DNA of 64,000 nucleotides from Halopelagius longus (GTDB lineage: Archaea > Halobacteriota > Halobacteria > Halobacteriales > Haloferacaceae), in the NCBI RefSeq assembly GCF_900100875.1, contig NZ_FNKQ01000003.1, positions 682,001 to 746,000 on the forward strand, given 5' to 3'. A program made the translations under genes and the position numbers. Below, in pieces: positions 55,683 to 60,739 of the stretch (position 1 is the first letter of the stretch; every line of letters starts with the position of its first letter). The notes beneath the pieces are model-generated. The model was not told the DNA's origin, did not search any database, and saw only the letters and a list, made by a program, of their open reading frames with translations.

Positions 55683-56543
55683 CTACTCCTCCGACGATTC
55701 GCCCGCCGACTCCGAGTCGTCCGCTAACTCCGAGTCGTCCGCCGACTCCGTCGCCTCCGAACGCTCGTCGAGTCGTTCGAACGTCTTCCGCGCCCACCGA
55801 ACGCCGTAGGACGCGCCGTACTCCACGTACGCCTGCGTGTCGAGTGCCGCGAACGGCGCGGGCAGTTCGCGGCCGTGCTTGACGGCCGAACACGCGAACT
55901 CCGTCGCGTCCGCGAACGACGTCTGCCCGCGCGCGACTTCCCGCGGCAGGTTCGTCAGTCGCCCCTCCAGTCGCGCCCCGGCGTCGGTCCACGCGTCGTG
56001 CAGTCGAGGGCGTTCGTCGGCCCACGACTCGAACGTCGGGCGCGTCTGGAGGCCCAACCACGCCTCGTAGAGGGCCGTCGCTATCTGGTACACCTCGTTC
56101 GGCGGAAGGGGAACCGCGTCGTCGAGTTCGCGGTACTGCTCCCCGAAAAACGGCAGGAAGTGCTCGGGCGCGCCCGTCCCGAGTTGGACGAACGCCTCCG
56201 CCAAGAGGAAATCGAGGAACTCCTCGGGCGTCCCCTCGGCGCGCGCCTTCGCGAACACCGTCGGCGGGACGGTCTGTCGGGTCCAGACGACGGTGCCGTC
56301 GCCCGGCATGCCGACGGTGAAGTCGGTGCTCGCGTAGCGAACGAGCAGTTGCGGCGCGTCGTCGGGGAGCCACTCGGCGGGGTACGTCGCCGGGTCCAGA
56401 GAGTCGGCTACGAGGCCGAGGTCCTCCGCCGCGGCGGGCGGTATCGTCTCGAAATCCGCCGCCACGTCGAGGACGAGGCTGTCGGGTGCGTGCTCGTCTC
56501 GGACGGCGGCGACGTCGTCGGGGAGTTCGCGCGTCTCGAACAT
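55683..56543 (-). CDS. Conserved haloarchaeal protein of unknown function
   Basis: A 286-residue soluble acidic protein (MFETRELPDDVAAVRDEHAP). Conserved-looking blocks include LLVRYASTDFTVGMPGDGTVVW, NEVYQIATALYEAWLGLQTRP and AYVEYGASYGVRWARKTFERL. No catalytic motif or membrane segment. The last 30 residues are Asp/Ser/Glu repeats (ESADDSELADDSE) and disordered. Downstream of the 29-residue ORF and the oap genes on the same strand, it may belong to the origin neighbourhood. Confidence 0.7.
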   Translation of the reverse strand: MFETRELPDDVAAVRDEHAPDSLVLDVAADFETIPPAAAEDLGLVADSLDPATYPAEWLPDDAPQLLVRYASTDFTVGMPGDGTVVWTRQTVPPTVFAKARAEGTPEEFLDFLLAEAFVQLGTGAPEHFLPFFGEQYRELDDAVPLPPNEVYQIATALYEAWLGLQTRPTFESWADERPRLHDAWTDAGARLEGRLTNLPREVARGQTSFADATEFACSAVKHGRELPAPFAALDTQAYVEYGASYGVRWARKTFERLDERSEATESADDSELADDSESAGESSEE

Positions 56544-56570
56544 CTGTTCGGTGTAGGGGTTCGAGGCCCT

Positions 56571-56660
56571 TCAGCCGAACGCGATGACCGCGATGAGCGC
56601 GATGGAGAGGACGGCCGAGACGCCGACGGTTCCGAGGACGAGTTTGGTCGCCTTACTCAT
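56571..56660 (-). CDS. 29-residue single-helix membrane peptide
   Basis: A very short ORF (MSKATKLVLGTVGVSAVLSI to IAFG). It has a basic N-terminus and one hydrophobic helix of about 22 residues. A minus-strand TATA box (ctttaagc, 56684-56691) stands 24-31 bases before the ATG, which argues for a real gene. It sits alone between oapC and the conserved gene at 55683-56543. Function unknown; a small membrane regulator is one option. Confidence 0.6.
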   Translation of the reverse strand: MSKATKLVLGTVGVSAVLSIALIAVIAFG

Positions 56661-56683
56661 GGTATCACCCATTTCGCCGCGGT

Positions 56684-56691
56684 GCTTAAAG
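56684..56691 (-). promoter_or_regulatory. TATA box of the 29-residue ORF
   Basis: Minus-strand ctttaagc, centred about 27 bases before the ATG at 56660. Confidence 0.5.
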
Positions 56692-56801
56692 CCTTCAATA
56701 TCGACGGAACGCGCCGGAATCACAACCTCGCTCGTCTCGACTGCGACTGCAGGAAGAGCGCGGAGCGAGTCGGCGAGAAGCGGAGACGACCGGTCGTCAG
56801 T

Positions 56802-57860
56802 TCACTCGTCGGGTTCGCCATCCCACGAGTCGGGGACTTCGATGACGTAGCGTCCGTCCTCGCGCAGCGAGATGATGTACTCGGTGCGGTCGTACAGTTC
56901 CATCAGGTTCAGTTCGTACTCGCCGGGCGCGACGATTTTGATGCTCTCGAACTGGCTGTTCAGCTCCTCCCGCAGTTCGTCGAGCTCCGGTCGCTCGTCG
57001 CTCTGCGGTTCGATGACGGTGCCGTCGGCGTCGGTCGGCGGTCCGTCCGCCTCCTCGACCGCCGCGCGGTCCGCCGCCGCCGCTATCTCGTCCGGGGAGA
57101 CGACCGCGCTTCTGGCGCTCGCCTGCGCGGAGTCCTCGCGGTCGGGGTCGGGTTCGCCGGGCGCGGGCGCGTTTGTCGGCGTCTGCGGACTCCGTTCGTC
57201 GGGGGCCTGCGGCGAGTCGCTCGCCGAGGGCGACCCGGACTCGGGTTCGGCGCTCGAAGCGGACTCCGAGGCCGAAGCCGACGCGGACTCTCCCTCGGAC
57301 GAGGAGTCGGTACCGCGGGAGCTCACCCAGTCGCGGACCGACTTGCCCGCGCGGTTCGCACGGCCCGAGAGGCCGCCGCCGCCCTCCGCCGCCTCGGGCG
57401 AGGCGTCGCTCCGGGTCGCTTCGTCCGGCGCGTTCGACGCCGGTCGGTCGTCGTCCTCGACGTCGGCGGCGCGTTCCGCGGTGCGCGCCCACGTCGGGGA
57501 CTTCTCGTCCTCGGACCGGGTCCGACGGTCCGCCGACGTCTCCGAGGCGGAGCCGCCGGGTTCGGGTCCGGTCGCCGGCGAGTCGGTCGAGGCGGTTTCG
57601 CTTCGGCGAGTCGAGTCGGTATCGGACTGCGTGCGGTCGGCCGCCGAACTCCGGTCGGCGTCTGTCGGTGTCGAAGCGGAACTCGGGGAGGGGCGGTCCG
57701 TCCCCTCGGTTCGCGTCGAGGACGCCGCACCGTCGGTGGACCCCGAGCTGCCGGACGGACGGAACTGGAACTTGTTCCCGCCGCAGTTGGGGCACCCCGA
57801 TAGCATCTCCTTCGAGCCGTCGGGGAACACCTTACCGCAGTTCGTACATTGGTGGGGCAT
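56802..57860 (-). CDS. oapC: Origin-associated zinc-ribbon protein OapC (ArvC-type)
   Basis: A 352-residue protein. The N-terminal zinc ribbon is HQCTNCGKVFPDGSKEM followed by GCPNCGGNKF. About 220 residues of Ser/Asp/Glu low complexity follow. A conserved C-terminal domain then reads ELNSQFESIKIVAPGEYELN and YIISLREDGRYVIEVPDSW. Members of this family lie beside haloarchaeal origins with oapA and oapB and are thought to form an Arv system around a small GTPase. A gap of 138 bases separates it from oapB on the same strand. Confidence 0.9.
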   Translation of the reverse strand: MPHQCTNCGKVFPDGSKEMLSGCPNCGGNKFQFRPSGSSGSTDGAASSTRTEGTDRPSPSSASTPTDADRSSAADRTQSDTDSTRRSETASTDSPATGPEPGGSASETSADRRTRSEDEKSPTWARTAERAADVEDDDRPASNAPDEATRSDASPEAAEGGGGLSGRANRAGKSVRDWVSSRGTDSSSEGESASASASESASSAEPESGSPSASDSPQAPDERSPQTPTNAPAPGEPDPDREDSAQASARSAVVSPDEIAAAADRAAVEEADGPPTDADGTVIEPQSDERPELDELREELNSQFESIKIVAPGEYELNLMELYDRTEYIISLREDGRYVIEVPDSWDGEPDE

Positions 57861-57998: not shown

Positions 57999-58394
57999 TC
58001 AGCGTCGGGAGACGAGCGCGCTGATGAGGTTCTCGTCTTTGTGGAGCGTCTCTATCTGATTCGCCGGGCCGATGACGGTGAGCTTCTTCGTCTCCTCCGA
58101 GCCCATCAGTCGGCCGAGGAACCCTTGGCTCCCGGCCTTCGACTGCGGATACGTCTCTATCTCGATACCGTTGAACTCGTCGGGGCTGATCTCCGTCATC
58201 GTCACCTCGATGAGCTTCGACTCCTCGTCCGGCGACAGTCCCTCTTCGAGGATGACGATGTTGCCGTCGCGGACGCCGTCGAGGATGAGCCTGATCTTCT
58301 CCATGCTGGTCAGGCCCTCCATGCGGGCGCCGCTTATGAGGTCGATTTGAACTCCGTCCGTGTTGCCGGGTGTGACTTCAGGCATGATACTCAC
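57999..58394 (-). CDS. oapB: Origin-associated protein OapB (DUF2073, ArvB-type)
   Basis: A 131-residue soluble protein of DUF2073 (GVQIDLISGARMEGLTSMEKI, IVILEEGLSPDEESKLIEVT). It contains no enzyme motif; the family is thought to pair with the OapA GTPase. The GTG at 58394 overlaps the oapA stop (GTGA); ATG 58385 is an alternative three residues in. Part of the oapA-oapB transcript reading away from the origin. Confidence 0.9.
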   Translation of the reverse strand: MSIMPEVTPGNTDGVQIDLISGARMEGLTSMEKIRLILDGVRDGNIVILEEGLSPDEESKLIEVTMTEISPDEFNGIEIETYPQSKAGSQGFLGRLMGSEETKKLTVIGPANQIETLHKDENLISALVSRR

Positions 58395-59032
58395 CCGAAG
58401 TACTCCGCGATCTTGTCGTACACTTCGTCCATATTGTTTCCTTCCAGCGCCGAGAGTGGAACGGTCTCGTGTTGCGGGAACGCGTTCGCGATGCGCTGGA
58501 CGTTCGAGTCTTCGAGGTCGGTCTTGTTCGCGAAGATGAGCACCGGTAGGTCCTGACTCTCGATGATCCCGATGAGCATCGTATTCACTTGCGTGAACGG
58601 GTCCTCCGTGCTGTCGAGGACGTAGATGACGCCGTCGACGTCTTCGCGCAACCAGTGCATGGCCTCGGCGACACCCTCGGTCGCCTCTCGGGAGCGACGA
58701 ACGGCGTCGTCCTTCTCCATGTCGTGGTCGAGGAACTCCTTGTAGTCCACCTTCGTGGTGACACCGGGAGTGTCGACGATGTCGATCGTGACTTTCTTGC
58801 CGTTGCGCTCGATTTCCACGTTCTCCTTCCGACGCGCGCGGCGCGTCTCGTGAGGGATGTGGCTCTCGGGCCCGATGGCGTCACCGGTCCAGTCGCGTGC
58901 AATACGGTTCGCAAGGGTCGTTTTTCCGGCGTTCGGCGGTCCGTAAATGCCGATCCGTCTCGGCTCTGCGTCCGAGAACATCCGGTCGACGACCCGTGAG
59001 ATACTGTCTCTTAAATCTGTGAGCAGACCCAT
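58391..59032 (-). CDS. oapA: Origin-associated Era-like GTPase OapA (ArvA-type)
   Basis: A 213-residue small GTPase. G1 GIYGPPNAGKTTLANRI, G3 DIVDTPGVTTKVDY, G4 IFANKTDLED; G5 probably VPLSALEGNN. It is the gene nearest the origin on this side and leads the oapA-oapB transcript. The ATG at 59032 is preceded by ggaggctagg, a good ribosome site, and a TATA-like gtgtttaag about 70 bases upstream, so unlike many neighbours this messenger has a leader. An open frame to 59086 covers that leader and was rejected. Confidence 0.92.
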   Translation of the reverse strand: MGLLTDLRDSISRVVDRMFSDAEPRRIGIYGPPNAGKTTLANRIARDWTGDAIGPESHIPHETRRARRKENVEIERNGKKVTIDIVDTPGVTTKVDYKEFLDHDMEKDDAVRRSREATEGVAEAMHWLREDVDGVIYVLDSTEDPFTQVNTMLIGIIESQDLPVLIFANKTDLEDSNVQRIANAFPQHETVPLSALEGNNMDEVYDKIAEYFG

Positions 59033-59202
59033 CCTAGCCTCCCGCACCTCCCGACTCCGTCGTGGAGGGGCGTATGGAGGTACCACATTTCCGGGCCCAC
59101 TTAAACACTACGTCAGACGGCAGTCATTTTCACACCTCATTTATTCGAATTGAAATAGGTTTAACAGGGCGTTAGGACCTCGTACTCCGCCGTTCGACCC
59201 GA

Positions 59203-59244: not shown

Positions 59245-59514
59245 ACCGGTCCACGTTCGCCGCCGCGCCGACGGACGACGCCCGGTCGAACCGACGTCCT
59301 CCCGACACGTCTCGACGCCCTAGTTTCGGGTGGAGAGCCGTCGAATCTCGTCGCCTCGGCGTCGTTCCGATACGTTCCTCGGCCGCGGAACGACTCCCTC
59401 GACCGAAGGACGGGACTAACTGACACCTAAATTGGGATAGTCACCGCGCGCGCGAGTTCGGTCTGAAGGAAGACGGTCGAATCGATCCAGGTCCGCTACC
59501 GTCCGACTCGCTCC

Positions 59515-59536
59515 GCCCCTCCGTTTCGATTCGAAC
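59515..59536 (-). promoter_or_regulatory. ORB-like box, outer left
   Basis: Minus strand: gttcgaatcgaaac then ggaggggc. Has the dyad and the G-tail of a recognition box, with a few changes from the two identical boxes. Confidence 0.55.
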
Positions 59537-59590
59537 CGTCTCGGAACGGGCGAGGTGAGAAAGGGAAAAGAAACGAAGCGACGGTGGAGG

Positions 59591-59658
59591 CGACGGGAGA
59601 GACGGGACGGCGGTAGAAACGAGACGACGGGAGAGACAGGACGGCGGTGAGAACGGAG
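59591..59658. repeat. Imperfect 2 x 34-base direct repeat, purine-rich strand
   Basis: Units 59591-59624 and 59625-59658 both begin cgacgggagagac and differ at a few positions. The plus strand over about 59540-59700 is strongly purine-biased (repeated gaga, ggga, aaag). Confidence 0.6.
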
Positions 59659-59827
59659 GAAGGTGAACACGAACGCGACGGTGAACGCACGGGGCACGCA
59701 GGACGGACGAGAGAACACGGTGGGTCGAACGGACGCACTGGACACGAAAGGGAGGGCCCGTCGGACGGAGAGACGGAGAAGGCGAGCGGGACGGAGAGCG
59801 AATCCGAGCCGATCGGCGGAACACCCC

Positions 59828-59851
59828 CACCCCTTCGTTTCGACTGGAAAC
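59828..59851 (-). promoter_or_regulatory. Origin recognition box (left of AT-rich segment)
   Basis: Minus strand: GTTTCcagtcGAAAC followed by GAAGGGGTG. Identical over 24 bases to the box at 60200-60223 but on the opposite strand. A g-rich run lies on its right side (59861-59873). Confidence 0.85.
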
Positions 59852-59884
59852 CCTCGTGAGGGTGGGGGGTGGGTCACCGAGTCG

Positions 59885-59985
59885 ACGGCTATGCTAGTTA
59901 ATACAACTAGCGACCCGGCCAATAATATCTCTCTTTTCTGTTCTACGGATACTGTTTCCACGGCAACGTGATAAAACCACCCGCT
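59885..59985. other. AT-rich segment, candidate DNA unwinding element
   Basis: Much richer in A and T than the surrounding DNA (aataatatctctcttttctg, 59920-59940). It contains a 17-base inverted repeat, CTAGTT-aatac-AACTAG (59894-59910), and lies between oppositely oriented boxes. Confidence 0.65.
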
Positions 59986-60023
59986 TCGAAAGACGGCTTC
60001 TACCCCCACCCGCCCTTTCGGCA

Positions 60024-60053
60024 GTTCCACCCGAAACGAAGGGGTGTGGGGGT
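60024..60053 (+). promoter_or_regulatory. Origin recognition box (right of AT-rich segment)
   Basis: gttccacccgaaac followed by gaaggggtg and an extended g-run. Opposite in direction to the left box. Confidence 0.8.
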
Positions 60054-60077
60054 ACTCCCCTACGTTTCGTGTCGAAC
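60054..60077 (-). promoter_or_regulatory. ORB-like box facing the preceding box
   Basis: Minus strand: gttcgacacgaaac then gtaggggagt. With the box at 60024 it forms a tail-to-tail pair whose G-tails meet at about 60053. Confidence 0.6.
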
Positions 60078-60199
60078 CCGAACCGACCTTCCGACGGAGC
60101 GTGTCCTCCGAGAACACTCGACACACTACGTCGCGAAATTGCAGATTCGAGCCGGAAAACGGCGGATACGTGCCTTCGCGTTCGAGCCGAACACCGTCG

Positions 60200-60223
60200 G
60201 TTTCCAGTCGAAACGAAGGGGTG
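60200..60223 (+). promoter_or_regulatory. Origin recognition box
   Basis: GTTTCcagtcGAAAC then GAAGGGGTG; exact match to the left box. Confidence 0.85.
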
Positions 60224-60287
60224 TAGCGTCCGAACGCGTCTCTCAGACCCGCCTGCGTTTTCGAACGCGAGTGTCGTCGTCGCCTCC

Positions 60288-60313
60288 GCGAGTGGAAACG
60301 AGGGTGGGGGTGG
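60288..60313 (+). promoter_or_regulatory. Degenerate ORB-like box with g-run
   Basis: gcgagtggaaacgagggt followed by gggggtgg; right half of the dyad and the G-tail are kept. Confidence 0.5.
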
Positions 60314-60409
60314 GAGCGACGAGACGGCGTGGAGTCGAAACGGTGGCCTCCTGGCGGGAAGGAACGCGGGATGAGACGGCCGTATCACACCGGCATCCGG
60401 GGAAGATAC

Positions 60410-60433
60410 GTTTGCAGTCGAAGTCTGGGGGCC
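60410..60433 (+). promoter_or_regulatory. Degenerate ORB-like box
   Basis: gtttgcagtcgaag then tctgggggcc; dyad centre and G-tail retained. Confidence 0.4.
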
Positions 60434-60708
60434 GATTCGCGGCGTCTATCGGTTTTTCGACTCTCTCAGTCCTCGACGAGAGTCGCCGCAGTCACCAAAC
60501 TCCATCCGAAATCTCCACTCGAGTGAACAGTCGAACGACGGTACCGGTGGGCATCGCGTACCGTTCAACGTTGATGCCGATAGACAATTTTTAGTACCAC
60601 CTGTTCGTCTGGTTCGTCTGCATCATCTGGACGCGCCGTCTTCGGTGCGACGGCGGAGTACCGGTGTCCTACACCGTCTTCCGCCGACTGTGCACCGTCT
60701 GCGGCCCG

Positions 60709-60730
60709 CTTTCCACTCGAAATTGGGGGG
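60709..60730 (+). promoter_or_regulatory. orc1: ORB-like box over the orc1 promoter
   Basis: ctttccactcgaaa then ttgggggg, ending nine bases before the orc1 ATG. It occupies the place where a leaderless orc1 transcript would have its TATA box and start, and no other TATA is seen there. Confidence 0.65.
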
Positions 60731-60739
60731 TATGCACGT

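Follow-up and report, generated by a model that had tools for sequence, protein, structure and literature searches.

A gene of just 29 codons in the haloarchaeon Halopelagius longus encodes a predicted single-helix membrane microprotein. The pattern of its conservation across relatives shows it to be a real gene, under selection at the level of the protein. Of the 166 sampled genomes of its order, Halobacteriales, that carry DUF7089, 165 have it directly upstream of the DUF7089 gene and on the same strand. As far as can be judged from genomes with and without DUF7089, the dependence between the two appears to run one way: DUF7089 needs the microprotein, and the microprotein has a separate use. 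The gene was found in a stretch of 64,000 nucleotides, here called the window, and all coordinates below are positions in it.

The open reading frame is on the minus strand, at 56571 to 56660 with the stop codon included. The ATG is at 56660-56658, the 29 codons occupy 56574-56660 and the TGA is at 56573-56571. The product is MSKATKLVLGTVGVSAVLSIALIAVIAFG, 29 amino acids long, identified from the reading frame itself, a profile match and a predicted structure. An alternative in-frame ATG at 56672 would give a 33-residue form. Such an ATG, within 15 nt upstream of the start, is present in just 6 of 188 homologous loci, which makes the 29-residue start the likely one.

Against the Pfam family PF24004 (Microp_archaea, "Archaeal microprotein") the microprotein scores 42.8 bits, with a curated gathering cut-off of 27. 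The match spans the whole model, residues 5-33 of the 33-residue form aligning with positions 1-29 of 29. The microprotein is a full-length member of this family, which is already catalogued. The earlier note on this DNA, which called very small archaeal membrane proteins poorly described, is right about function but not about the family, given its Pfam entry. None of the NCBIfam models reaches its cut-off on the microprotein. As a query against its own genome (E<=1) it returns one match.

The best Kyte-Doolittle mean over a 17-residue span is 2.7. AlphaFold2 models the 33-residue form as one helix, residues 7-32, with a mean pLDDT of 92.4. Together, hydropathy and model give the hydrophobic helix of about 20 residues expected of a single-pass membrane protein, membrane insertion being a prediction, and they agree with the single helix that had been claimed for this peptide. 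By the positive-inside rule, a lysine puts the N-terminus in the cytosol and leaves the hydrophobic C-terminus at the outer face. Because the microprotein has a conserved lysine, we infer a single-pass helix whose N-terminus, in the cytosol, is very short (MSxATK, the lysine included) and whose C-terminus is outside. The helical periodicity of conserved positions is not significant (p 0.36 for entropy, 0.81 for small residues). The test thus gives no support to a single conserved face for packing, and that candidate was rejected.

An ORF this short is below the usual gene cut-offs, and GC-rich DNA does yield long open frames by chance. The window has an example: a frame of 642 codons on the plus strand, at 55875-57803, antisense to DUF7089, the microprotein and oapC, which is almost certainly a GC-rich artefact. 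That the microprotein ORF is spurious as well has next to no probability, given its conservation, its codon-position pattern and the promoter geometry described below; a chance ORF was rejected on conservation. In 71 pairs of relatives, with no genome used twice, differences at codon positions 1, 2 and 3 number 301, 163 and 516, each of 2002 sites. The median dN/dS is 0.24, with one pair above 1, in a sample of 150 out of 570 eligible pairs, which are not independent of each other. Residues S2, T5, K6, V8 and T11 are nearly invariant in 42 microprotein sequences, and the N-terminal MSxATK is conserved. Homologues are conserved and their differences are mostly at third codon positions, so the ORF that was noted is a real microprotein.

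A homologue search with the peptide in haloarchaeal genomes, the check that had been proposed, does find conserved homologues. The 33-residue query matches 117 of the 119 genomes of the Haloferacaceae family sample, and all 104 of the 104 good assemblies. The two genomes without a match are assemblies of 56% and 89% completeness. In the order sample, PF24004 is above its cut-off in 127 of 195 genomes. At E<=1 this becomes 179 of 195, a threshold that takes in some chance matches; the model also rings, below cut-off, in 3 bacterial control genomes.

The Pfam model is insensitive. Several homologues recognised by position are weak or missed (G142 with E 0.105, G153 with E 0.0128, G165 with no match), and the score is likewise weak or missing for G209 and G253, which were found by position or with a wider profile. 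The loci with such poor scores are L169, L181, L174, L219 and L222.

In the phylum-level sample, PF24004 at E<=0.01 is found in 18 of 148 genomes, every one of them in the window's order, and none of the 148 holds a relative outside the order at that threshold. The wider profile, A1, has 4 weak matches outside the order among the same 148 genomes (E 0.003 to 0.1), which are probably chance. No plasmid-borne relatives were found at E<=1.

A TATA-like box, TTTAAG, is located at 56685 to 56690 on the minus strand, and its first base is 30 nt before the ATG. The box is conserved across homologous loci. The promoter survey covers 188 of these, 182 with DUF7089 and 6 without. In 166 of the 188 a TTTA box (TTTAH) starts 29-30 nt upstream of the ATG, which confirms the correct distance reported in the earlier note. 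Within 24-34 nt of the ATG a box is present in 172 loci, versus 1.3 on average over 50 mononucleotide shuffles. Thirteen of the 16 loci lacking a TTTA box have, by eye, a one-base variant in the same place (GTTA or CTTA); three genomes of family f10 have neither (also by eye).

The spacer behind the box diverges fast. Per-site differences are 0.22-0.62 for positions -22 to -1 and 0.01-0.10 for the box at -30 to -27, measured over 740 non-independent pairs. The base at -1 is a pyrimidine (C or T) in 99%. Leaderless transcripts are also common in H. volcanii, making up 72% of its protein-coding transcripts according to PMC4983044. The conserved box distance, the diverging spacer, the pyrimidine and this share together indicate that transcription starts at the ATG, and that the microprotein mRNA is almost certainly leaderless. 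The peptide had been said to have its own promoter. The promoter is real, but it serves the unit of microprotein and DUF7089, not the microprotein alone: we strongly infer a single leaderless mRNA that carries both.

The second gene of this unit encodes a DUF7089 protein (PF23363) of 286 amino acids, at 55683 to 56543 on the minus strand, with a 27-nt gap behind the stop codon of the microprotein. DUF7089 is found in 166 of the 195 genomes of the order sample. The 165 with the microprotein directly upstream consist of 153 from the DUF7089 tables, 3 reached via the microprotein (G004, G198, G279) and 9 added later. In the one left over, G204, the contig end removes the upstream side, and DUF7089 is represented by its C-terminal half alone. 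Looking exclusively at order genomes picked by DUF7089, adjacency is intact in 162 of the 162 that are readable.

Junction and neighbour statistics rest on a first set of 182 genomes, made up of 156 order genomes and 26 family genomes. The latter entered through a microprotein match, and are no test of the presence of the microprotein. DUF7089 is next downstream in 182 of 182 genomes of this set, and in 9 of 10 of a later set, where the tenth is a contig end. Stop and start are -8 to +10 nt apart in 161 of the 182. One-base overlaps of stop and start occur in 100, of which 93 are TGATG and 7 TAATG. The gap is above 20 nt in 18 genomes, ranging from 27 to 409 nt (the latter in G098).

According to PMC10666635, such short distances permit translational coupling, and around 20 nt almost abolishes it. 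For H. volcanii the same source gives the share of gene pairs that encode subunits of heteromeric complexes: 45.2% where the distance is this short and 5.6% where it exceeds 20 nt. The spacing that marks a coupled pair, from an 8-nt overlap to a 10-nt gap, is seen in the 161 genomes and is absent from the window. The 27-nt gap of the window's lineage is past the measured coupling range (PMC10666635), so coupling has probably been lost there. The 18 genomes with gaps over 20 nt also mean that strict coupling is not universal.

In the large-gap genomes a CTGAAG- or CTCAAG-like sequence is often seen, by eye, near -29 of DUF7089. Loci of Halobellus and Halogeometricum type (L009, L010, L198) have a long gap, for example 94 nt in L009 and 207 nt in L010, often with a CTGAAG-like element near -29 of the DUF7089 ATG. 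Perhaps DUF7089 has its own promoter where the gap is large.

Stops and starts that touch or overlap in most species, behind a leaderless start, are also what one would expect of an upstream cistron or leader. Its translation would then matter and its product would not, the ribosomes being handed on to DUF7089. This is very improbable. The amino acids are conserved far beyond what translated filler would be, as the codon positions and the five nearly invariant residues attest, so the sequence is not free apart from a control motif. The microprotein is kept even at the gaps of 27 to 409 nt. And where the ORF of a leader peptide should occur only before the gene it controls, 13 of 29 genomes without DUF7089 still have the microprotein. 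The leader peptide was rejected because the microprotein outlives DUF7089.

These 29 genomes of the order are 20 listed as lacking DUF7089 and 9 that are absent from the DUF7089 match table. Twelve of the 13 that keep the microprotein are G125, G127, G130, G186, G224, G244, G132, G146, G187, G201, G209 and G253; the thirteenth, G121, is counted by a weak match (E 0.0065). In 7 of the 13 (G127, G132, G146, G187, G201, G209, G253) the microprotein is directly behind oapC. In G125 and G130 its neighbour is, by eye, DUF7090, and the stretch shows no Arv gene. For G186, G224, G244 and G121, none of DUF7089, DUF7090 and the Arv genes was found near it. In the other 16 of the 29 no microprotein was found, and several of these are incomplete assemblies. 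Weak A1 matches in G136 and G230 were discarded, there being no such ORF in their loci.

That 13 of 29 keep the microprotein implies that it has another job without DUF7089. Conversely, at least G129 and G154 are nearly complete genomes that have kept ArvABC and lack both the microprotein and DUF7089, and the unit is therefore dispensable. In these two and in G277, DUF7090 follows within some 50 nt behind oapC, with the unit gone and ArvABC intact. A rearrangement just downstream of the microprotein is seen in L246 and L247 (G187 and G201). There the microprotein is still beside oapABC, and what follows it is a convergent gene pair that by eye looks glycerol-kinase-like and channel-like.

The AlphaFold model of DUF7089 is confident (mean pLDDT 93.6). 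Foldseek has no match for its fold at E<=0.001, and the sequence has no match in the PDB at E<=1. VIA-align returns low Z scores only. The best is an HtpX domain (Z 5.5, rmsd 2.8, 75 residues aligned), and among the 37 rows listed 22 are zinc metallopeptidases or relatives, as grouped from their titles. The HExxH motif is present in 1 of 182 DUF7089 proteins. Going by the model, DUF7089 is perhaps a catalytically dead zincin-like protein. This likeness is a hint and not a result, since such Z values may reflect just a common arrangement.

Upstream of the microprotein, all on the minus strand, are oapC (56802 to 57860, by profile match), oapB (57999 to 58394, by profile match) and oapA (58391 to 59086, a small GTPase by its GTPase match and its place before oapB). 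OapA, B and C have been renamed ArvA, B and C, the products of a vesiculation operon (PMC10927574). The peptide had been placed in an origin-associated cluster; that cluster is better named after the arvABC operon as published in PMC10927574. On the other side is a convergent neighbour, a DUF7090 protein (PF23365; 55031 to 55609, plus strand, by profile match), which is in the same stretch as the microprotein in 128 of 182 genomes. The window also has repeats of type TTCCANNCGAAACGAAGGGGTG at 59315-60733, in both orientations, between oapA and orc1. We take these to resemble the origin recognition boxes of a haloarchaeal replication origin.

The vicinity of oapC is common and is seen in many families. 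The suggestion that the peptide always follows oapC did not hold up, however: in 78 of 182 genomes oapC is upstream on the same strand at no more than 1.1 kb, and the constant neighbour is DUF7089. In a further 30 oapC is farther away and still inside the stretch examined, and in 74 it is outside, some of these having just 1.5 kb of flank. No oapC was seen next to the microprotein in the stretch for four Haloferax contigs and for 20 of 21 genomes of family f4. H. volcanii, a control genome, has PF24004 and DUF7089 both above their cut-offs, and its gene order is probably microprotein, DUF7089, DUF7090, judging from 4 of the 6 Haloferax contigs retrieved. As the main partner oapC was rejected on the count within 1.1 kb, and it is retained as a lead. 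For 126 genomes the places of both OapB and DUF7089 are listed; at most 5 kb separates the two in 94 of them, and at most 20 kb in 103. OapB itself is present in 190 of the 195 order genomes, including ones without the microprotein.

The microprotein might be a fourth, membrane-embedded component of ArvABC, for example a receptor for ArvA or ArvC, with DUF7089 as an added regulator. The frequent nearness of OapB to DUF7089 would fit this, as would the 7 DUF7089-less genomes with the microprotein behind oapC. PMC10927574 reports that in H. volcanii vesicle yield falls some threefold when arvA or arvB is deleted and rises 1.65-fold when arvC is; the term "small protein" is absent from its main text. 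We consider this reading unlikely. A component should be located with arvABC everywhere, and the counts for oapC and OapB, the Haloferax contigs and family f4 say otherwise. It should also share the phyletic range of ArvA and ArvB, whereas ArvA occurs across 14 archaeal phyla according to PMC10927574 and the PF24004 matches of the phylum-level sample are all in a single order. ArvABC is intact in genomes that have no microprotein. An inherited block near the origin explains the proximity equally well; in L192, by eye, the same order continues with DUF7090 and a methyltransferase-like gene.

In a more specific version the microprotein is the receptor in the membrane for ArvABC, the vesicle-forming GTPase system, and DUF7089 is a haloarchaeal addition, perhaps a scaffold that is metallopeptidase-like and inactive. 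We rate it as decidedly improbable. If true, this would be an archaeal equivalent of the small membrane adaptors that serve vesicle budding. Some role for the microprotein in vesiculation is possible.

It is also conceivable that the microprotein acts on an unrelated membrane protein, or on the lipid bilayer generally, and that its neighbours are simply inherited gene order. The four genomes that keep it away from both DUF7089 and the Arv genes point in this direction. Small proteins of Methanosarcina mazei are reported to act on unlinked membrane complexes (PMC10714827, PMC13370731). The adjacency to DUF7089 is unbroken in the 162 readable order genomes picked by DUF7089 while other neighbours such as DUF7090 change, which makes this reading doubtful.

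We prefer, tentatively and with somewhat less than even confidence, to see the microprotein as a single-pass membrane anchor or subunit whose partner is DUF7089 or, in genomes that have lost DUF7089, something else. The TGATG and TAGATG junctions suggest that in most species DUF7089 would be translated by termination-reinitiation behind the microprotein, so that the two would be made together. The small subunit or anchor would then hold or regulate the soluble DUF7089 protein at the membrane. For the second job, the best candidate partner may be some membrane process near ArvABC. This is a lead only, and a weaker one because gene order near the origin may be inherited without function and because ArvABC is also found in genomes that lack the microprotein.

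Present with a fixed promoter and start in most sampled haloarchaea, this 29-residue protein is a small and clean target for work on archaeal single-helix microproteins. The one-way dependence suggests a sequence for testing in an organism whose genetics are easy, and the recurrent place behind arvABC makes vesicle yield the obvious first phenotype. Judged by genome comparison, what is new here is the unit with DUF7089, the order-wide leaderless promoter geometry, the one-way dependence and the relation to arvABC. None of these was found in print in the main texts of open-licence papers. The names PF24004, DUF7089 and DUF7090 occur in no paper within that same scope; proteomic or Ribo-seq lists in supplements may therefore hold the peptide.

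Compared with PF24004, no difference was found, the match being whole-length and above the curated cut-off. The likeness to ArvABC (OapABC) is one of position: the microprotein adjoins it in the window and in many genomes, but it is often not adjacent, has a narrower range and is missing from some genomes with ArvABC. Bacterial CydX, KdpF and SpoVM are very short membrane or membrane-associated proteins for which the larger partner is known. Partners are known for the M. mazei small proteins too, whereas that of the microprotein is a candidate only. The likeness is that all of these are very short, belong to the membrane and act, the microprotein presumably, with a larger partner.
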